The notes beneath the pieces were generated by a model, which saw only the letters and a program-made list of their open reading frames with translations, made no database searches and was not told where the DNA came from. A DNA stretch of 64,000 nt from Accumulibacter sp. (GTDB lineage Bacteria; Pseudomonadota; Gammaproteobacteria; Burkholderiales; Rhodocyclaceae): the NCBI GenBank assembly GCA_017302455.1, contig JAFLDO010000002.1, positions 1 to 64,000 on the forward strand, in the 5' to 3' direction. Positions 1 through 41,980 of the stretch are shown here, one piece after another. A program made the translations under genes and the position numbers. How positions within the stretch are numbered: the stretch's first letter is position 1; every line of letters begins with the position of its first letter.

Positions 1-111
1 ACCTGTCGCCGTCGCGGAGCATCCGCCTGGCAGTACCTCGGCACCGTCATCGCCGCCGCCCGCAAAGGCTTGCAGCTCCCCACGATCCCCGCCATCCCGG
101 CAACCGCGTAG
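1..111 (+). CDS. C-terminal fragment of a probable IS66-type transposase (partial)
   Basis: A frame open from base 1 to a TAG at 109-111 gives 36 residues: an Arg-rich start (CRRRGASAWQYL), a short helix (TVIAAARKG) and a proline-rich tail (LPTIPAIP). This layout resembles the C-terminus of IS66-family transposases. The GTGAATGATTAC immediately after the stop could be the end of an insertion sequence. The rest of the gene lies left of the window, so the family call is by resemblance only. It would explain why the leftmost gene cassette is truncated. Confidence 0.35.
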   Translation, partial: TCRRRGASAWQYLGTVIAAARKGLQLPTIPAIPATA

Positions 112-115
112 GGGA

Positions 116-298
116 GTGAATGATTACACGGAATCACTACTATCATCCTATGCGCTAAGCGGCGGTAAAACAACGCAGGACATTCCCTTCGCGATCTCTC
201 GCGGTAGCGTTCCCGTCAAATTCATTCATGGCGATGCGGCGATAGACGTATCCAAACACCGAGTTGCCGGCGCGCCGACAAGCGCGTCTGCCAAGTAG
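116..298 (+). CDS. Small unrecognised ORF in a truncated cassette
   Basis: A 60-codon frame beginning with GTG at 116 and ending before the first attC site. The protein matches no family I recognise, has no signal peptide or membrane segment, and has no separate ribosome site upstream (the only GGGGAG touches the start). Its position just before attC1 is that of a cassette gene whose 5' part has been replaced by the element to its left. It may equally be a remnant or chance frame. Confidence 0.15.
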   Translation: MNDYTESLLSSYALSGGKTTQDIPFAISRGSVPVKFIHGDAAIDVSKHRVAGAPTSASAK

Positions 299-314: not shown

Positions 315-352
315 ATCAAAGGGGCCAGGGTCGGATTAAATGCAAATCAATA
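315..352 (+). repeat. Upstream flank repeat, copy 1 (before attC1)
   Basis: The 38 bases before attC1 (containing GGGGCCAGGGTCGGATTAA) recur with a single mismatch (A/G) at 3855-3892, directly before attC4. Together with the attC sites this makes a direct repeat of about 108 bp. The flank lies outside the attC core, so two different cassettes end in the same non-coding tail. Confidence 0.85.
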
Positions 353-422
353 GCCCAACTCTGCCCTCCAAGCGACGCTGCGCGATAAAGCCGCGCAGCG
401 CGCCTGAGCTTTCACGTTGGGC
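353..422 (+). repeat. attC site 1
   Basis: R'' GCCCAAC at 353-359 and R' GTTGGGC at 416-422. The interior folds on the complementary arms CGCTGCGCG (376-384) and CGCGCAGCG (392-400) around ATAAAGC. This 70-bp site closes a cassette whose 5' part is missing. It is nearly identical to attC4 and similar to attC2 and attC3. Confidence 0.85.
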
Positions 423-613
423 ACCCGAGGGGGAGAGTCCTTTGCATTTCGCGTGTCGCACCCATCGGCTTTACGCTGCGGGCGGTTCGACGTCTCCCGT
501 GGCCCTTGCCGGTCGTGGCCGCGTCGCGGCTGCCGCGGCGGCGCGTACTGCAGTGCGCATCCTGAAACCGGCGTGATTGAGCAAGCGCCTGCGGATATTC
601 TGGAGATCTTTAC

Positions 614-1375
614 ATGAGCATGTCATCTTTTATCAGGTGCTTGATCTTTCGCCTCGGAGGTTCGTGGGAAGTCAGGCTCGACAAGGTCAAGAATCAAATT
701 GTCGATAAGGACTTACTAAGGGAAATTTCCCTCAGAGACTCAGATCCTCTAGTGCTACGCGCCGCACAGATGAAGCTCCGTAAGGTGAAGGCAGACGATG
801 CCTTCGCGCGCATTGAGAAATGTCAAACCGATACTGAACTCGCAAGATTCGCAAGAGGTGAAAGTGGCGAGGGCGAGCTTGTGCAGTGGCTGGCCCTAAG
901 AAAGCTAACAGACCAAGCTGAGTTAGGACAGATTGCTAGGTTGGATCCAAGCGCCGTCATGCGGTGGTGTGCTATCAAGAATTTAGACGACAAGGAAATC
1001 CTGTCCTTCCTCCTCGATACTGAGAAGACTGGAATTGTGCGTTTCTCACTTGCCGCAAAGCTGAAGGCACTGGGTGTCGTGAAGCCGATAAGCGGAGTTC
1101 CTCAAATATCTTGGCACCAAAACCGAAAAGGCGGGCTTTGTGACACCTGCTCTGTTGACATTAGCGCACCGGAGGGCTTTATTGGAATACCGGATGATGT
1201 CGAAGACACCTATCTCGCATGCGACTCGTGCTGGGACCAAAGCTGGACACGTTACGGGTACTCACCGACAGAGGGAAAGGAACGAGCATGGGTATGGTGG
1301 CAAGAGGGTGGCGATGCTAGGACACTGCAGAGTCTGAAAATTTTCGAGCGGCTTGCAGCATTGCATTGCAGGTAG
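614..1375 (+). CDS. Cassette 1 protein: helical (HEAT-like) repeats plus a Cys4 domain
   Basis: A 253-residue protein of unknown function. Residues about 30-150 form four irregular helical repeats of 27-30 residues with an 'x-E-L-x-x-I-A-x-x-D' beginning (DKDLLREISL, DTELARFARG, QAELGQIARL, KEILSFLLDT), like the HEAT/LRV-type repeats used for protein contacts. The C-terminus carries Cys176-x2-Cys179 and Cys203-x2-Cys206 with PEGFI between, a probable zinc site. The same Cys4 module with identical spacing ends the cassette 3 protein. GGAG at 602-605, eight bases before the ATG, supports the start. About 190 bp between the cassette start and the gene hold nothing I can recognise. No signal peptide; cytoplasmic by inference. 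Confidence 0.75.
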   Translation: MSMSSFIRCLIFRLGGSWEVRLDKVKNQIVDKDLLREISLRDSDPLVLRAAQMKLRKVKADDAFARIEKCQTDTELARFARGESGEGELVQWLALRKLTDQAELGQIARLDPSAVMRWCAIKNLDDKEILSFLLDTEKTGIVRFSLAAKLKALGVVKPISGVPQISWHQNRKGGLCDTCSVDISAPEGFIGIPDDVEDTYLACDSCWDQSWTRYGYSPTEGKERAWVWWQEGGDARTLQSLKIFERLAALHCR

Positions 1376-1427
1376 CCCCATACTCGAACACCGAGCTTGG
1401 GGTCACATCTAGCGAGCGCCTATTCAT

Positions 1428-1496
1428 GCCCAACTTTGCGCTCCAGGCGACCGGCCGCATAAACCCGCGGCCGTCGCCTGAGCTTTCACGTTGGGC
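1428..1496 (+). repeat. attC site 2
   Basis: R'' GCCCAAC at 1428-1434 and R' GTTGGGC at 1490-1496 enclose a GC-rich imperfect palindrome built on 'CGACCGGCCGC...CCGCGGCCGTCGCC'. At 69 bp it is almost the same as attC3. It ends cassette 1, whose first bases (TTGGGC at 417) complement its R''. Confidence 0.85.
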
Positions 1497-1551
1497 GTCA
1501 AAGCAGCGTTGTCATGGAAGTACTTCTTCACACCTGAGACAAGGGGGTCAT

Positions 1552-1671
1552 ATGAAATCACTCTGCAAAGCCGCTGTCGCTACATTTATCTTGCTATCGA
1601 GTGTTCAAGTTCTTTCGGCGGGCTTGGCGAAGAAAACGTCTCGGCGCGCCAGCCAAGGAGATCCAACATGA
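1552..1671 (+). CDS. Cassette 2 small secreted peptide (39 aa), coupled to the next gene
   Basis: A 39-residue frame with an AAGGGGG ribosome site just before the ATG. Its N-terminus is a classic signal peptide: MKSLCKAA, a hydrophobic core (VATFILLSSVQVL) and a small-residue cleavage site near SAG. Only about 16 basic and polar residues would remain after cleavage. The stop TGA (1669-1671) overlaps the ATG of the next gene (1668) as ATGA, so translation is probably coupled. It could be the truncated 5' end of a longer secreted protein, or a leader peptide whose main role is to feed ribosomes to the lipoprotein gene. Confidence 0.5.
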   Translation: MKSLCKAAVATFILLSSVQVLSAGLAKKTSRRASQGDPT

Positions 1672-2144
1672 AGCGCTCAGATCCAGCTTTAGGTGCATTT
1701 GCAACGTCAAGTGCTGCATCGGCAGCGTCGGTGATTTTATCTCACAATAGACGATTACCTAGTCTATTTGCTAGCGTAGTGGTTGTATTAATGCCAGCCG
1801 TTCTTGGGTGTGGCGTTCAGCAGAATATAGTTTCTATCCCAAAGACTGACTCCATCGCAATTGTTGATACTGAAGGCGCGTCGATCTATGGTTCTCAAAA
1901 AATCGATATGACAGCGTCTCCTCCTCGTATTATCCTACGTGAGAAGGGTAGGTACATGCTATTTCGTGTGGACCGTCAGGAAAAATTGGGGGATGTTCAA
2001 CCTCACGCAGGTGAGGTTTATGTCATCAATGACGCGCTTAACCTCGAGAAGGTAGGCACCTTTGATGCGACTAAGACCGACGATCAATTGCGATGCGAGT
2101 TTCTCAAACCAGATTCAAGAGGAGGTAAACTCTCTTGTCCATAA
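1668..2144 (+). CDS. Cassette 2 putative lipoprotein, unknown function
   Basis: A 158-residue protein starting at an ATG preceded by AAGGAG (1655-1660) and overlapping the small peptide gene by four bases. After about 28 polar residues comes RRLPSLFASVVVVLMPAVLGC, a basic and hydrophobic stretch ending in a lipobox-like VLGC, so the mature protein would be lipid-anchored in the envelope. The N-terminal extension before the hydrophobic segment is unusually long for a lipoprotein. The remaining about 110 residues look like a beta-rich globular domain and match no family I know. Confidence 0.6.
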   Translation: MKRSDPALGAFATSSAASAASVILSHNRRLPSLFASVVVVLMPAVLGCGVQQNIVSIPKTDSIAIVDTEGASIYGSQKIDMTASPPRIILREKGRYMLFRVDRQEKLGDVQPHAGEVYVINDALNLEKVGTFDATKTDDQLRCEFLKPDSRGGKLSCP

Positions 2145-2196
2145 CATATCGCAAAGCGTGGGGTAAAAGCGTGGGGTCTTGTAATCATGCATCCAT

Positions 2197-2265
2197 GCCC
2201 AACTCTGCGCTCCAGGCGACCGGCCGCATAAAGCCGCGTCCGCCGCCTGAGCTTCCACGTTGGGC
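2197..2265 (+). repeat. attC site 3
   Basis: R'' GCCCAAC at 2197-2203 and R' GTTGGGC at 2259-2265, 69 bp. The interior differs from attC2 at only a few positions. It ends cassette 2, whose own start is TTGGGC at 1491. Confidence 0.85.
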
Positions 2266-2334
2266 ACAGACATCTGTCGGTGCCCATAGGGGGTGCTTAC
2301 GAGCCAACGGCGTCAAGAGAAAGGAGAGTGCATC

Positions 2335-3546
2335 ATGAGTTGGTGGACCAAGTTGTTTGGTGGACCGGCTGGTCACGAGTCGTCCCCGGTCAAAAGATCA
2401 GCAGAATCTCGCATTTTTCCCCAAGGGCATCGCGAAGACACGACGGATAAAGAGATTGACGATCTGGTGAGTAGTTTCTGCCGGGGTCCGCGACTCTTAT
2501 ATTATGATGAGGAGCATGAAAAGCGCGTGAAGGAGCTGCGGCGGGAGCTAGTCTCAAAGGGCGATCGGGCCGTCCCTATACTTGCAAACGTCATCAGATT
2601 TGACTTTCAGGGCGAGCCTCGGAGCGCTATGTTAGCGGTTGTTGTTCTTGAAGATATTGGGACGAATCGTGCAGTCGAGGTCCTCAGTGAAGTACTCCAT
2701 TGGCCGGACAATAGAACCGCCGAGATGCTCCGACTGTACGAGCGCGCTGCTGAAGCGCTTGTTTCTATTGACAGCGAGGCTGCATGGGTAGCCATAAGGG
2801 CAGCTGCTTCTGGTCCCGCAAAGGATTATGCAAACGCTATTGCGCAACATCCCAGAGCGCGGCTTAAGCCTAACGCGGACGGCACTAGCAGCGACGAGCG
2901 GTCTAGCCGCATATGGCAAGAGGACGACGATGGCCGCATGCGGAGCCTAGACGAGGCTCGATCATTTTGTTCCTCGCTGGCGTTAGGTGGGAAGCACGAC
3001 TGGCGCTTACCCACCGCAAAAGAGCTGAAAACCTTAACGGGAACCCCTAATCTGCGGGAAGGTGCATATTGGGCCGAAGAATTGAGTGGCGATCCCTTCC
3101 ATCGGCATTCCTTCCGGGACTTTGCTGGCGAGTGCTCGGGAGGAAGGCCAGATGATGATATTGCTAGAGTTCGGGCCGTTCGGGAAGACAATCCGTCGTG
3201 TCAGCGGAATTTGCAGCATCCCATGACCAGTCCTCCTCGCGCCCCCTCGACTCGCCAACCCCCGCCCGCCACTGATCCTCTCTCGGGGGGAATTCCGGTG
3301 GGCAAGCGTCCTTTCGCTTTCTGCAACGGATGCGATTGTGTTCTCCAACCACCAGAGGGACTCATCGCGCTCGGCCACGACACGTCGACGTGTTTCTTAT
3401 TCTGTGAAACGTGCTTCGAAAACGCCAAACATGTTTTGGCAAGGGACGATAAGGTCTTTTTGCGCTCCCTAGCGAAGGAATGGTGGACTAATGGCTCTGT
3501 TCGATACGGTCGCTGGTCGTCAAGGGACAGACCACGGTATGGCTAG
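2335..3546 (+). CDS. Cassette 3 multidomain protein: helical repeats, DUF1566/Lcl-like domain, Cys4 domain
   Basis: A 403-residue protein; the ATG at 2335 follows AAAGGAG with good spacing. Residues about 35-170 are helical with HEAT-like character (RAVPILANVI, SAMLAVVVLEDIG, AVEVLSEVL). Residues about 192-285 match the DUF1566/Lcl C-terminal domain: 'RIWQEDDDG', then LDEARSFCSSL, the hallmark HDWRLPTAKEL (221-231), 'AYWAEEL' and 'RVRAVRED'. A proline-rich linker (about 295-325) leads to Cys330-x2-Cys333-x23-Cys357-x2-Cys360, the same probable zinc module that ends the cassette 1 protein, again with PEG between the pairs. Role unknown. DUF1566 domains are usually surface or binding modules, yet there is no signal peptide here. 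Confidence 0.75.
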   Translation: MSWWTKLFGGPAGHESSPVKRSAESRIFPQGHREDTTDKEIDDLVSSFCRGPRLLYYDEEHEKRVKELRRELVSKGDRAVPILANVIRFDFQGEPRSAMLAVVVLEDIGTNRAVEVLSEVLHWPDNRTAEMLRLYERAAEALVSIDSEAAWVAIRAAASGPAKDYANAIAQHPRARLKPNADGTSSDERSSRIWQEDDDGRMRSLDEARSFCSSLALGGKHDWRLPTAKELKTLTGTPNLREGAYWAEELSGDPFHRHSFRDFAGECSGGRPDDDIARVRAVREDNPSCQRNLQHPMTSPPRAPSTRQPPPATDPLSGGIPVGKRPFAFCNGCDCVLQPPEGLIALGHDTSTCFLFCETCFENAKHVLARDDKVFLRSLAKEWWTNGSVRYGRWSSRDRPRYG

Positions 3547-3892
3547 CTCAATGGCTCAAGGTGCCACTCCGGGGACAGGTCCGGTTCCGGTGGAACAGCA
3601 GTCGCCCAAACAATGGAATTTTCGATCACCTCACCGGCCGCTCCTGGCCGGTAGCCGACCGACGTCATGCTACACCCACTGACTGCTTCCCGACGCGTAG
3701 CGGTCGGCCAGGCGAGGAAATTGACATCCCCAGCGGCATGACTGCTTACGGTTGATCCGCCCGGTCGGCTTTGGAGAAGAATCTTCACCGTCTGGTTCTA
3801 TGGCCGACTGCCGACCGACGGCAGGTAAGCAACAAAACAAAACATGGGGTCAAGATCAAAGGGGCCAGGGTCGGATTAAGTGCAAATCAATA
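3547..3892. other. Non-coding tail of cassette 3
   Basis: These 346 bases lie between the cassette 3 gene and attC4. I see no convincing gene: the short frames lack ribosome sites and family features. A small perfect hairpin, CTGCCG-accga-CGGCAG, sits at 3808-3824, and 'GCCGACCGACG'-type words occur twice (near 3654 and 3810), which could be a decayed repetitive element. The last 38 bases are the flank repeat shared with attC1. Confidence 0.4.
3855..3892 (+). repeat. Upstream flank repeat, copy 2 (before attC4)
   Basis: Same 38 bases as 315-352 with one mismatch, running straight into attC4. It begins at ATCAAAGGGG; the sequence further left differs from the first copy, so the duplicated segment has a clear left edge. 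Confidence 0.85.
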
Positions 3893-3962
3893 GCCCAACT
3901 CTGCGCTCCAAGCGACGCTGCGCGATAAAGCCGCGTAGCGCGCCTGAGCTTTCACGTTAGAG
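3893..3962 (+). repeat. attC site 4
   Basis: R'' GCCCAAC at 3893-3899 and R' GTTAGAG at 3956-3962, 70 bp, nearly identical to attC1 inside. The right core differs (TTAGAG, not TTGGGC) because those bases belong to the next cassette. This is the expected signature of a junction between two unrelated cassettes. Confidence 0.87.
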
Positions 3963-3968
3963 GCTTCA

Positions 3969-4550
3969 ATGGAACTCTGGCAAGCAATCCTCTTGGCATT
4001 TGGCGGCAATGCGGCGCTAATAGCTATCTTGGCAGTGCTAGCGAAATCACTGCTCGACAAACTAATCGTCCGCGACACCAAAGTCTTTGAATCCGAGCTG
4101 AAGTCAAAGACTGACGCCGAGATCGAGCGTTTGAAGAACGAAATGGCTCGAAACGTGGAAAGTTACAAAGTTCAGTTGAAGAAGTCGGAAATATTTTTTC
4201 AGCGCGAGTTGGAAGCAGCCTCCGCGTTTTCCACACTCTTTCACTCCATCCTTCCGGGCTATAACAACCCGCTCATGGACTGGTATGAGGCGTGTGACGA
4301 AATTGCTCACGACTTTGGAAGAATCGAAACGCGACTTTCCGACTTTATGTCAAAACATGGTGCGGTTCTCACCGACGACGAGCGAGCACTGTTAGTCGAT
4401 GCAACCTCTGATGCTGGCTACGGAAAGTTCGATGTTATAGACGGAGATGTCGACTCCAATGCCAACCAAAAAGCTGACGAGCTTTACCAGAAGTTAAAGA
4501 ACCTCGAAGCAAAACTCATTGAGAGAGTCCGTGCGCAAGCCAGCCTCTAA
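3969..4550 (+). CDS. Cassette 4 membrane-anchored coiled-coil protein, unknown function
   Basis: A 193-residue protein. Residues about 5-30 form one transmembrane segment (ILLAFGGNAALIAILAVLAKSLL at the N-terminus). Residues about 38-80 are a charged heptad-rich helix (ESELKSKTDAEIERLKNEMA), followed by a mostly helical acidic domain ending in another helix. This single-TM plus coiled-coil layout is typical of hypothetical proteins found in integron cassettes, but I know no function. The stop TAA (4548-4550) lies inside the R'' core CTCTAAC of attC5, so the gene runs up to the recombination site. The ATG is 12 bases into the cassette and has no strong ribosome site. Confidence 0.7.
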   Translation: MELWQAILLAFGGNAALIAILAVLAKSLLDKLIVRDTKVFESELKSKTDAEIERLKNEMARNVESYKVQLKKSEIFFQRELEAASAFSTLFHSILPGYNNPLMDWYEACDEIAHDFGRIETRLSDFMSKHGAVLTDDERALLVDATSDAGYGKFDVIDGDVDSNANQKADELYQKLKNLEAKLIERVRAQASL

Positions 4551-4616
4551 CATGGCGGTCGAGAGGGGCGGCCTGCAAGCTGCGCTTGCAGGCCGTCCCT
4601 CTCCTCTACATTAGGC
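4545..4616 (+). repeat. attC site 5 (atypical, long perfect hairpin)
   Basis: R'' CTCTAAC at 4545-4551 complements the start of its cassette (TTAGAG at 3957). The interior is an almost perfect 20-bp stem, GAGAGGGGCGGCCTGCAAGC against the 20 bases ending 4603, with a TGC loop and a single G-U pair. The right core reads ATTAGGC (4610-4616), with A where the cleavage-site G is normally found. It is quite unlike the other sites in the array. Confidence 0.72.
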
Positions 4617-4639
4617 TGTTGTAGAAAGAAGCTTGCTGA

Positions 4640-5050
4640 ATGACTTTATTTCGTGGTGGCTGTCTATGTGGGGCCGTGCGGTACGAAACGATTTCTGATC
4701 CTTTGAACCAGAGGATATGCCACTGTAGGGCTTGTCAAAAAGTTATCGGCGCTGCCTTCAACGCTCGCGTGCTCATGCGCATCGAACATGTTGCTATCTC
4801 TGGCCCAATCAGCACATTTCACTCTTCAGAAACTCTTGAGCGCGGTTTTTGTTCGCATTGCGGTTCAAGCATTTTCTCGCGGCGTGTAGCTGCAGGAGTC
4901 ATCGGCTTAACAGCCGGTAGTCTCGACGAACCGTCACTATTCAAACCTGACATGCATTTTTGGATATCTTCAAAGCAACCGTGGCTAATAATTGCAGATA
5001 ACCTGCCTCAATACCCAGAAGGCCCGCCATCTTTGGGCTATAAGCCATGA
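4640..5050 (+). CDS. Cassette 5 GFA-family (glutathione-dependent formaldehyde-activating-like) protein
   Basis: A 136-residue protein with the zinc-binding pattern of the GFA/CENP-V domain: GGCLCGAVRYE at the start, CHCRACQK near residue 32, and FCSHCGSSIF near residue 75. These Cys residues bind two zinc ions in the family. Members are named after an enzyme that helps form S-hydroxymethylglutathione, but most, and probably this one, have no proven substrate. Length is normal for the family. It fills cassette 5, which is bounded by attC5 and attC6. GFA proteins are, as I know them, frequent cargo of integron cassettes. Confidence 0.85.
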   Translation: MTLFRGGCLCGAVRYETISDPLNQRICHCRACQKVIGAAFNARVLMRIEHVAISGPISTFHSSETLERGFCSHCGSSIFSRRVAAGVIGLTAGSLDEPSLFKPDMHFWISSKQPWLIIADNLPQYPEGPPSLGYKP

Positions 5051-5066
5051 GTATTTACTCTAGTTG

Positions 5067-5132
5067 GCCTAACATTGCATTCGAAGCGACCTACGCAAAA
5101 AGCCGCGCAGGCGCCTCAACTTTACGTTATGC
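5067..5132 (+). repeat. attC site 6
   Basis: R'' GCCTAAC at 5067-5073, complementing the cassette 5 start (TTAGGC at 4611), and R' GTTATGC at 5126-5132. The interior resembles attC1 and attC4 (AAGCGACCTACGC and GCCGCGCAGGCGCC arms). Size 66 bp. The start codon of the next gene lies inside the right core. Confidence 0.85.
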
Positions 5133-5488
5133 GTCTTAGTAACTCTCCTCGCGCATTAGCCGCGCTTTCGTTCCTCTGGCCTTCAATCATCTCGATAGGC
5201 GTGCTGGTTATACTCGGCAATCAGCTGGGGTCAGTTAGCGCGTTGTTTTCGCTCGAACCTCCAGCTGACACCATCGTGCGTTTTACATGCATTGCTCTGC
5301 TTATTGCTCTTGTGTGTGGAGGCCTGCTGCTTTCACCCGTGATGCTGCCCCGGTTCGCCCGTTGGTCCATGTTGTTTGTGTGTGTCGGGATCACACTTGG
5401 GTGCCTAGGCTTCGCACAACTTCTGTCACTCGGCTGGGTGTTTCCGTGTTGGTACTTGTTTAGGTTTGCTCATGAAACATACGCATAA
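5129..5488 (+). CDS. Cassette 6 small membrane protein spanning the whole cassette
   Basis: A 119-residue hydrophobic protein with three or four membrane segments (about residues 15-35, 50-70, 78-98 and a last one near 100), family unknown. The ATG at 5129 lies within the R' core GTTATGC of attC6, at the third base of the cassette. The TAA at 5486-5488 lies within the R'' core GCATAAC of attC7. The reading frame therefore occupies practically the entire 405-bp cassette. No ribosome site of its own is visible upstream, so translation would depend on what the preceding cassette supplies, or on a leaderless or re-initiation mode. A later non-ATG start cannot be excluded. Confidence 0.6.
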   Translation: MRLSNSPRALAALSFLWPSIISIGVLVILGNQLGSVSALFSLEPPADTIVRFTCIALLIALVCGGLLLSPVMLPRFARWSMLFVCVGITLGCLGFAQLLSLGWVFPCWYLFRFAHETYA

Positions 5489-5537
5489 CGAGTAAGGATA
5501 GATCGTGCGAAGCCACGATCTGATCCGTTTGTTGGAC
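5483..5537 (+). repeat. attC site 7 (short, last of the array)
   Basis: R'' GCATAAC at 5483-5489 complements the cassette 6 start (TTATGC at 5127); R' GTTGGAC is at 5531-5537. Between them a compact stem pairs GGATAGATCGTG with CACGATCTGATCC around CGAAGC. At 55 bp it is the shortest of the seven. No further attC is visible to its right, where a TTGGAC-started cassette is cut off by the IS91-type element. Confidence 0.82.
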
Positions 5538-5719
5538 GAGCCCGGGCCGGAGAGCGGGGCGCCCCCCCTGCAAACATCTTTTCTGGAATGACCCCATAGG
5601 CATGAACGCCGGTGGGGCGGGAGCGGGAAGTTTCGGCGCGCCGGCGCATGCGCGGCGCCGATCTCCCGAAAGCCGCCGTTTTCGCGTCCCGGCCACCGCT
5701 TTCCGGGCGGCCGCATCGC

Positions 5720-6711
5720 TCAGCTTGGGGAAACTGAAGTCCCGCGTGCGGCCGGGCAGCGCTGAGGGCTCGGCTTACATGATGAGAGGGCGACTCCAAT
5801 GACCGGCAAGACAGCGACCACTACGGACGACGTCGGTCGAATCCGCGTCCTGACGATCGCCATCACGGCGCCACAGCATGGGCAGAGCATCGCTGGCCGC
5901 ACCTTGCGCGGTAGCTTGAAGCGGTTCGGATCGAACTTCAGCAAGAGATGCAGCAAGCCGATCAGGCGCTTGCAATTGGCGTGCAGGAAGCCGAAGTTGC
6001 GTGCGCGGCGAAAGCCCTTGGGTAGCACGTGCTGGAGAATCAACCAGAGGAAATCGACTCCGGAAAGCGTGCGCCTTTCCGACCTGCCGGTTTGGGCGTT
6101 GCGATAGCGGAAGCTCACCTGGCCATCCTCGCAGGCGACGATATCCTGTTCCCGGATGACGCCGCGGTAGAGGTAACGACCGAGGGTGATCAAGGCCTTC
6201 TCACCGCTGCCAACCGATTGGCAATGCGCCACCCATTGCCGCGAATCCGACGCCGGGAGGCCGATCCCGGCCGCCTCGATCGCCGCCAGCATCTTCGCCC
6301 GAAAGACCTTGGCCATCGCCTTCTCGTTGAACAGGTAGGTGCCGTTCTTGCCGCGCCGCTTGCATCGCCAGCGCGGCGTCGCCGCATCGACCGCCGCCGC
6401 GGGGACGACGAGATGGACATGCGGGTGGAAGTCGAGCCGACGTGAGTGCGTGTGCAGGACAGCGATCGCCCCCGGCGTCCCCTGCAACTGCCGGTCGTTC
6501 TGGCTGAAGCGCAGCACCGTTTCCCAGGCGCAGCGCATCAGCGAATCGAAGACGACGTCGGCGTGCGCCGCGGCGAGTCCGCGCAATTCGGCCGGCAGCG
6601 TGAAGGTCAGCAAAAAGTAGTCGGCCGGAACCAGACGCTGCACCTGACGCTCCAGCCATGGCTGTCGTGGTGCTGGCAGTGCGGGCAAAGGCGATGGCCG
6701 CAGATTAGACG
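5720..6711 (-). pseudogene. IS91-family transposase, frameshifted and truncated
   Basis: The minus-strand frame carries the IS91/IS801 (Y2 relaxase-like) transposase signature: LVPADYFLLTFTLPAELR, HTHSRRLDFHPHVHLVVP with the HxH metal site, LGRYLYRGVI, and near the C-terminus CPCCGAVMAIVRTRI. The zinc-binding N-terminal motif (CGHRLCPHCQHHDS, about 6660-6700) is in a different frame from the body: the frame must shift at about 6655-6663 to read on into WLERQ. Just upstream of the zinc motif is an in-frame TGA (6712-6714), and the rest of the N-terminal region is not recognisable. The gene is therefore broken. It closes the cassette array on the right. Such elements move by rolling-circle replication and can carry neighbouring DNA. 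Confidence 0.8.
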
Positions 6712-6991
6712 TCACCATGGGCTCCGCATCTCTCGGCCAGGCGTTCCTCGACCGAGCGGAAATTCCAGGCGCCAGGTTCTGGCATAACGACGCCGTTCGA
6801 CTTGTCGCAGCTTCGCACGCTGGCGAAGGCGGCTGGCTCGTGACGTCGGCGGCGTCCTCGGGATGGCCGGCGCGGAGGTCGGCGAGCGCCATAATTATGA
6901 ATTTCGCACCGAGTGGCGAGGCGTTTTGGTGTAGAATTTCTTGCCAGCTGCGAAGCCGTGACAGGCCCCGCAAGTCCCCTCAGGATCCCCG

Positions 6992-41370: not shown

Positions 41371-41980
41371 CCTTGGCGGGCTGCTTGTGGCGTTGGTCGG
41401 CCCGGGTGCGAGCTTCGCTGGCCCGCGCATCTATTGTTGCCACGACGATTCCGGGAAACAGGTGTGCGGCGACATTTTGCCGTCCGTTTGTTACGGGCGT
41501 GCCTATCGCGAGCTCGGCGACTCCGGCCGCACCTCACGCCTGGTTGACGCCCCGCTCACCGTCGAGCAACGCGCCCAGCGCGCGGCTGAGGAGCAGCGGC
41601 GCAAGGAGCAGGAACGCGTGCTCAATGAGCAGAGGCGAATGGATCAGGCGCTGCTCAACACCTACGCCAGCGAGAAGGATATCGAGATCATGCGCAGCCG
41701 GGCCGAGCGCGATCTCACGATGGCGATCAAGGCAGCCGAAGAGCGGATCGCGGAGATACGCAAGCAGCGCAAGAAGTTCGAGGACGAGGCGGAGTTCTAT
41801 CGCAATCGCCAGTTGCCAGCCGAGGTGGCCAAGGGTCTGCGCGATGCGGACTACGAGATCGGTGCGCAGGAGTCGGTGATCGAGTCGAAAAAGCGTGACC
41901 AGGAGACGATGCGCGCGAAGTACGACGAGGATCTGCGCCGCTTTCGCGATCTGTCCAAGCGACCGTCGGCGCGGCCCTGA
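41345..41980 (+). CDS. Secreted DUF4124-like protein with long coiled coil
   Basis: A 211-residue protein with a signal peptide ([25 protein letters not shown]). A short DUF4124-like module follows ([28 protein letters not shown], four Cys). Residues about 80-205 form an uninterrupted charged coiled coil ([49 protein letters not shown] in parts). It is probably periplasmic and envelope-related; its partner is unknown. The start lies inside pyrE after AGGA, so it is co-transcribed. Convergent with gatB. Confidence 0.72.

Follow-up and report, generated by a model that had tools for sequence, protein, structure and literature searches.

The stretch analysed here (the window) is the first 64,000 nucleotides (bases 1-64000) of the 161,748-base contig C39 in a Candidatus Accumulibacter genome assembly, in keeping with the placement in the Rhodocyclales made in a preliminary description of this DNA. 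Window positions 353-5489 hold a genuine integron cassette array with six attC sites in one orientation and six cassettes, and directly behind it lies the truncated remnant of an IS91-like insertion sequence (IS). In our view the locus is very probably best explained as a cluster of attC sites lacking integron integrases (CALIN), the array of which was ended by insertion of an IS91-family element into its last attC.

The attC sites were located with a profile of 68 positions built from 22 attC sites, none of them from the window, which were taken from other contigs of the source genome and from other genomes; 16 of the 22 lie at right ends of the IS91-like element described below. RNAalifold gave no pairs on the alignment of these sites, and the profile hence scores sequence alone, without base pairs. 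Searched at E≤1 against both strands of the 64 kb, it returned exactly six matches, all on the plus strand and with E-values from 2e-11 to 2e-4, namely attC 1 at 353-422 (R'' GCCCAAC, R' GTTGGGC; 35.9 bits, E 2e-10), attC 2 at 1428-1496 (18.6 bits, E 6e-5), attC 3 at 2197-2265 (27.4 bits, E 1e-7), attC 4 at 3893-3962 by its core boxes and 3893-3960 by its profile match (R' GTTAGAG; 34.3 bits, E 7e-10), attC 5 at 4545-4616 by its core boxes and 4546-4614 by its profile match (R'' CTCTAAC, R' ATTAGGC; 16.8 bits, E 2e-4) and attC 6 at 5067-5132 (R'' GCCTAAC, R' GTTATGC; 39.1 bits, E 2e-11). The preliminary description had listed seven sites and made its integron reading depend on their recognition by an attC model: six are attC by this independent profile, whereas the seventh (5483-5537) was unmatched and consists half of an R'' box and half of an element end. 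Its circularisation rule, by which the first six bases of a cassette complement the R'' of that cassette's own terminal attC, is kept in all six cassettes (TTGGGC/GCCCAAC three times, TTAGAG/CTCTAAC, TTAGGC/GCCTAAC and TTATGC/GCATAAC); the rule is informative in the last three cassettes only, with a chance of about 1/16 each, a figure estimated from the consensus and not computed. Sites 1 to 4, which had been called near-identical, instead form two pairs, attC 1 and 4 with 97% identity over 104 nt, upstream bases counted, and attC 2 and 3 with 92% over 75 nt; attC 5 and attC 6 belong to neither pair and are different. In attC 5, the R' box (4610-4616) has A and not G as its first base, at the crossover position, which may weaken this site.

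The array ends in the R'' box GCATAAC (5483-5489, plus strand), which departs from RYYYAAC at the third base, complements the TTATGC of cassette 6 and is the sole remainder of attC 7. The element starts directly after it with an oriIS-like terminus (5490-5537, plus strand), which is made up of a hairpin and a guide-like heptamer GTTGGAC (5531-5537) and is common to the element copies. The left half of the site formerly read as a seventh attC is thus the genuine R'' box of attC 7, and its right half is the terminus of a mobile element with copies on contigs C18 and C57 of the source genome; as an attC the site was ruled out, since it has no profile match and its right half recurs as an element end. 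The truncated element as a whole (5490-6703, minus strand) contains the remnant of a Y2 transposase (open reading frame (ORF) 5720-6973). Its bases 5500-6703 are repeated on C18 (165-1372, 94.7% identity) and, to about 6582, on C57 (88%), and more element fragments lie on C84 and C58. In these five copies of the source genome the unit starts after GCATAAC (window), GCCTAAC (C18 and C58), GCCCAAC (C57) or GCCCAAG (C84), and behind the far end GTCCAAC of the C18 copy the sequence reads like the remaining part of an attC. On C58, at about 41,600-41,700, the hairpin end GTTGGATGAGCCC follows GCCTAAC and element homology ends right behind it; this hairpin end is probably a remnant.

The C18 unit encodes a Y2 transposase with a zinc-binding domain (IS91 family NF033538, 343 bits, cut-off 125) and also a tyrosine recombinase, which scores 155.8 bits against the integron-integrase model TIGR02249, below its cut-off of 265. 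Xer models score similarly and also below their cut-offs, and positions 183-233 of the integron-integrase profile are unmatched; by these profile matches, the recombinase of the element is Xer/IntI-like and fails the integron-integrase cut-off. In the window copy, Y2_Tnp was matched with 135 bits, the zinc-binding domain was unmatched, and homology ends at 6703. The motif tyrosines of the Y2 transposase are catalytic. The motif reads TLGRYLY in the window copy and YLGRCLY in C18, compared with YLGRYLY in 69 of the 72 readable loci (of 80, see below), and both copies are probably dead.

Searching public genomes with the Y2 protein yielded 127 relatives, of which the best 80 loci were kept (numbered L). 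Among them, Candidatus Accumulibacter sp. ACC003 carries 14 near-identical copies in different flanks, and because the hairpin moves with these copies it is part of the element. Their alignment, for which L147 and L136 required individual end coordinates, gives a unit of about 2,430 bp that runs from AACG... to ...GTCCAAC, with YAAC as target in 14/14 copies; a target duplication was seen in none of the 14. Two places in ACC003, L132 and L144, show the same composite, in which a complete copy stands behind the initial 741 bases of another, as if both parts had moved as one unit. Elsewhere, L083 (G026:C173) is an internally deleted copy of 405 bp with both ends and the target GCCTAAC, a miniature non-autonomous form; the sequence behind it resembles a short attC by eye and was not called as attC by the right-end profile introduced below. 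In L134, L201 and L090, extra partial hairpin tips stand in tandem ahead of the element, as if copies had entered the hairpin tip of another copy.

The ACC003 copies bear on a rival explanation, according to which site 7 would be a genuine, if short, attC, with the Y2 transposase and the recombinase lying in an ordinary cassette moved by IntI, starting with TTGGAC and ending in the R'' GTCCAAC. These two core sequences do satisfy the circularisation rule, and the hairpin with GTTGGAC does resemble a short attC. However, hairpin and transposase move together in the 14 ACC003 copies, none of which has a right end called as attC; the sequence after GTCCAAC varies between the listed loci; among the left ends listed, four of which have damaged hairpins (L111, L120 and L193 twice), inspection by eye revealed no ordinary attC directly before GTTGGAC; and the attC profile fails to match site 7. 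Furthermore, two of the 10 exact hairpins found in 399 genomes lack GGAY after GTT, and neither of them has a clear R'. The element as an ordinary cassette was therefore dropped as very unlikely, since neither the hairpin nor the right flank behaves like part of a cassette, and we regard it as close to certain that the locus holds a cassette array followed by the end of an IS91-like element.

To describe where this group of elements lands, we collected 98 left ends and 76 right ends, which include 52 left-right pairs, keeping copies related by descent except those with identical flanks. Three of the 98 left ends were dropped because of hairpin length or a short target, leaving 95 usable. At least two junctions (L020 and L079) were placed wrongly by the left-end script, and L020, once corrected, would add one GCCCAAC. 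The left junction is YAAC in 89 of the 95. Outside ACC003 (80 junctions), GCCYAAC accounts for 31 of the 74 YAAC targets, compared with a background of 2.5% in source-genome DNA taken as attC-free (2.0% in the flanks of the other loci), that is an enrichment of about 17-fold over background YAAC (p 3e-30); in ACC003 it was found at 1 of 15 left targets. Right ends were scored with a separate attC profile, built from 22 source-genome sites of which none lies at an element right end, at a threshold of 8 bits. Three of the 76 had too short a flank, and those left are 58 from other genomes, 14 from ACC003 and the one on C18. An attC continues directly behind the element in 22 of the 58 in plus orientation and in 0 of the 58 in minus orientation, and 0 of 1215 control YAAC sites were called attC. 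The sources of these attC cases include Accumulibacter, other Rhodocyclaceae, Thiobacillus, Acidithiobacillus, Rhodoferax and Undibacterium. This sequence profile superseded a poor fold-symmetry classifier (166 of 4000 controls versus 16 of 73 right flanks at the top threshold, with integron loci in the control pool) and an arm-pairing classifier (18/59 versus 33/1215 at -18 kcal/mol and 23/59 versus 61/1215 at -16 kcal/mol, with ACC003 at 0/14 in both).

We conclude that elements of this group insert behind YAAC with their orientation fixed and that they often hit the R'' boxes of attC sites, and we have high confidence that attC is preferred. An element that merely needs YAAC might hit attC sites simply because they are frequent and contain this motif, and both the 89 of 95 YAAC junctions and the lack of attC at the 14 ACC003 right ends would suit such an element. 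The enrichment of GCCYAAC outside ACC003 and the one-sidedness of the attC insertions, 22 to 0, speak for a preference instead and make the YAAC requirement an unlikely full explanation.

The hairpin is supported by covariation, with 7 of 15 pairs changing on both sides and 98.9% of cells paired in 24 sequences, which were hand-picked out of 66 distinct ends so as to be diverse; none of 500 shuffles attained this, and slid controls stay at ≤46%. In 50 of 52 pairs, the heptamer on the hairpin side corresponds to the one at the far end (44 GTTGGAC/GTCCAAC and 6 GTTGAAC/GTTCAAC), 13 of the 52 being from ACC003. In ACC003, target positions 1-3 match the heptamer, taken as guide, at 1.67 of 3 versus 0.97 of 3 for local YAAC (p ~0.001), by a measure picked after the data were seen. 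IS200/IS605 elements use guide sequences, and by analogy with them the heptamer may have a guide-like role; we give its pairing as a guide an even chance. In Synechococcus and Cyanobium (L202-L204), the guide is GTTGAAC and the end GTTCAAC, and one L203 copy lies directly behind the end of another, with GTTCAAC as its target.

More distant relatives were found in a plasmid collection, in which 3610 records matched; 25 of them were listed and two of these, with about 40% Y2 identity, were examined. In an integron on RCS41_p, a plasmid of E. coli, aadA1 and qacEdelta1 flank the element, with GTCTAAC before the hairpin end and the far end GTTCAAC followed by AATTCGTTCAAGCCGACG...GTTAGAT. The right side was called attC (28.6 bits, E 8e-9) by a profile without E. 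coli sites, and we take the two flanks to be parts of the aadA1 attC. This copy occurs in 1 of 72,556 plasmid records. In the second case, pPHDD1 of Photobacterium damselae, the target is GCATAAC.

Based on these data, we propose that an IS91-family element with a Y2 (HUH) transposase and an Xer/IntI-like recombinase inserted into the attC of the last cassette, directly behind its R'', and that the inserted element afterwards lost its far half. Its hairpin end would act as oriIS, and the hairpin heptamer would guide the process by pairing, both to the cleavage site at the far end and, less strictly, to the target. As the R'' of an attC (RYYYAAC) would fit this guide just as it fits its own R' (GTTRRRY), arrays would be natural targets. 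Each insertion would split an attC, such that the upstream cassette is left with an R'' only and the downstream remainder gains GTCCAAC as a new R''.

Several points weigh against this proposal. None of the 14 right ends in ACC003 was called attC, and attC is therefore a preference or hot spot and not a strict target. A further 36 of the 58 right ends from other genomes and the one on C18 (0/1) were uncalled at 8 bits; some of the uncalled ends resemble attC on inspection or in their arm pairing (C18, L164), while others, including most cyanobacterial copies, do not, and at least one of the 58 is false, L160 being on the wrong strand for its transposase. Insertion at the R' box, which has the same motif on the other strand, was called in 0 of 58, and because R' offers this motif yet is unused, the heptamer guide alone cannot explain site choice; the asymmetry of the attC or the replication strand may lie behind the one-sided choice of R''. 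As for the pairing, heptamer agreement is broken in 2 of the 52 pairs (L105 and L207), and since the search patterns fixed most heptamer letters, the agreement tests in effect one position; the hand-picking of the 24 hairpins belongs here as well. Finally, the pPHDD1 copy has GTTGGAC together with GTTCAAC, and its right flank was uncalled by the attC profile.

The ends of the element leave room for both kinds of movement, in that the Y2 transposase would move the element while the ends imitate core sites; with each insertion into an attC, two usable sites would then be left and the element would become a cassette that IntI can mobilise. GTTGGAC and GTCCAAC are correctly placed for this, and two hairpins have other sequence behind G|TT, yet these are not clear scars. 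Among the left ends listed and the 10 exact hairpins from 399 genomes, however, we found no confident excision scar and no IntI-inserted copy, and complementarity is kept in the ACC003 copies outside attC, so that recognition by the transposase explains it. We consider such dual mobility improbable, although a published IS91-like element beside an attC is said, in the portion of the paper available to us, to give a new cassette structure (PMC9229058). It also seems doubtful that a widespread HUH group lands in arrays by guide pairing, rebuilds a core site on either side with each insertion, its guide being a copy of the integron core, and can then be shuffled by IntI as a cassette.

As a cassette array, the locus is ordinary and of a known kind. 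It shares attC sites in one orientation, core complementarity and mostly unknown genes with other integron arrays and CALINs, and it is unlike them in that the last attC is cut by an IS, the left end is unreadable and no integrase was found on the contig. Among elements that target attC, those of the IS1111-attC type have a DEDD transposase and group IIC-attC introns an intron reverse transcriptase. The transposase of the present element is Y2, not DEDD, and no group II intron RNA was matched at the Rfam gathering score in the window; a group II intron at the array end was dropped on this ground. Both types are mentioned or cited as inserting into attC in the sections seen of PMC9229058, PMC12444791 and PMC7923331. 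Within the IS91 family, the element resembles IS91, IS801 and the insertion sequence common region (ISCR) elements in its Y2 transposase with a zinc domain, its hairpin end, its short target and the lack of a visible duplication, but this group carries an Xer/IntI-like recombinase, targets YAAC and is enriched in attC. The targets of IS801 are given as GAAC, GGAC, CAAG and CGAC in the part of PMC3189936 consulted.

Two published elements come closest. The IS91-like ISShvi3 of a Shewanella integron adjoins an attC and possibly belongs to the same group, a comparison made by description and not by sequence; in the available part of PMC9229058 it is a single case, with no rule for target, orientation or ends and no IS reported to interrupt an attC. 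For the IS91-like ISCR28 of sul4 modules, an attC is reported at the element end or right after it, and the part of PMC12772301 that was accessible weighs the element's own mobility against passive cassette shuffling and describes no split attC. A group-wide rule of attC splitting by IS91-like elements was not found in the literature searched, which included PMC5001619 besides the papers cited here and mostly excluded subscription papers. The group of attC-splitting IS91-like elements is new as a group, with isolated sightings already in print. Splitting attC sites behind R'', it adds an enzyme class to the known attC-targeting elements (IS1111-type and group II introns) and represents a little-noticed way of breaking and remodelling gene-collecting arrays. 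It would account for arrays that end in 'odd' attC-like hairpins and calls for caution in attC annotation, where an element end can pass for an attC; the matching end heptamers provide a testable idea on target choice by IS91-family transposases.

As seen, with no local integrase, the array is a CALIN. No match to the integron-integrase family was found at E≤0.001 on the whole of C39. Matches over the cut-off lie on C3 (1821-2768) and on C86 (2369-3312), where the gene is split into two stretches and probably broken, and C42:7880-7987 matches the first 36 integron-integrase positions beside a copy of the IS66-type repeat that edges the window. The preliminary description had offered either an active or recently active integron or a CALIN: the CALIN label fits, whereas activity is unsupported. 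The intI gene, which it had proposed to look for to the left of the array, was not found on the contig, which starts at the array. The left contig edge is window base 1 and falls within a repeat common to other contig ends; because the contig begins inside this repeat, the left flank, and with it any attI site, is unreadable and CALIN is the safe label. The repeat corresponds to the 3' end of an IS66-family transposase gene (1-127, plus strand); identical copies of 127-128 bases sit at the ends of C65, C33 and C89, and the copy on C103 (88%) encodes the end of a 528-aa protein with DDE_Tnp_IS66.

To the right of the array follows a DUF2889-sucC-sucD block, which was matched in 18/18 same-genus relatives searched; in the 12 relatives with a match from the block start, homology begins near window 6874-6892, and no attC was called within 1500 bp upstream of DUF2889-sucC in any of these 12. 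The lack of attC in the relatives, and an assembly of 126 contigs with 3.69% contamination, could suggest that the array with its IS end is an artefact of assembly or binning. Since array, IS remnant and DUF2889-sucC-sucD lie on one contig, the block is matched in every relative searched, and attC matches were obtained on 9/9 other contigs of the source genome scanned, one of them weak (E 0.056), we give an artefact hardly any credence.

All six cassettes lie on the plus strand. Cassettes 1 (417-1490 by core boxes; ORF 614-1375, 253 aa), 2 (1491-2259 by core boxes; ORF 1668-2144, 158 aa), 4 (3957-4610; ORF 3969-4550, 193 aa) and 6 (5127-5489; ORF 5129-5488, 119 aa) have no family match in Pfam, and in the latter two the stop codon lies within R''. 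The start of the cassette 6 ORF at 5129 was assigned by us, the program-listed ORF beginning farther upstream. Cassette 3 (2260-3956; ORF 2335-3546, 403 aa) matches Lcl_C (PF07603, 37.4 bits, cut-off 34.9), and cassette 5 (4611-5126; ORF 4640-5050) encodes a glutathione-dependent formaldehyde-activating enzyme (GFA) domain (PF04828, 97.6 bits). Searched against NCBIfam, the cassette proteins gave merely one weak match below cut-off, for cassette 3, and PADLOC gave zero matches for the five of six proteins submitted. Within cassette 3, at about 3557-3823, lies a repeat that is matched at 73-88% in many Accumulibacter genomes.

The DNA of cassette 5 recurs on C118 behind a different attC, with 207 of 213 bases identical up to the end of C118. 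Homology begins at the crossover AC[A/G]TTAGGC; one border only is given, as C118 ends. This recurrence is the best proof of cassette mobility, and together with the attC profile and the core complementarity it bears out the initial identification of integron cassettes. A comparison of the array (360-5489) with 61 genomes, along the lines the preliminary description had suggested, found, besides C118, short matches of attC size and the repeat at about 3557-3823; among the matches listed, neither the array nor the body of any cassette occurred a further time.

Two minor observations concern the attC sites and their flanks. attC 5 contains a 20-nt inverted repeat, and permissive Rfam matches, to microRNA families on this repeat and others below cut-off, were taken as chance. 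attC 1 and 4 form part of a direct repeat of 104 nt (315-418 and 3855-3958, 97% identity), which is matched at 92% by C57:1086-1185. It opens with a 38-nt motif, GGGGCCAGGGTCGGATTAA..., that stands directly before an attC at 315-352, at 3855-3892 and once on C57 (L020 1086-1120), placed as though it travelled with the attC, and the copy at 315-352 (plus strand) is probably the tail of a lost upstream cassette.

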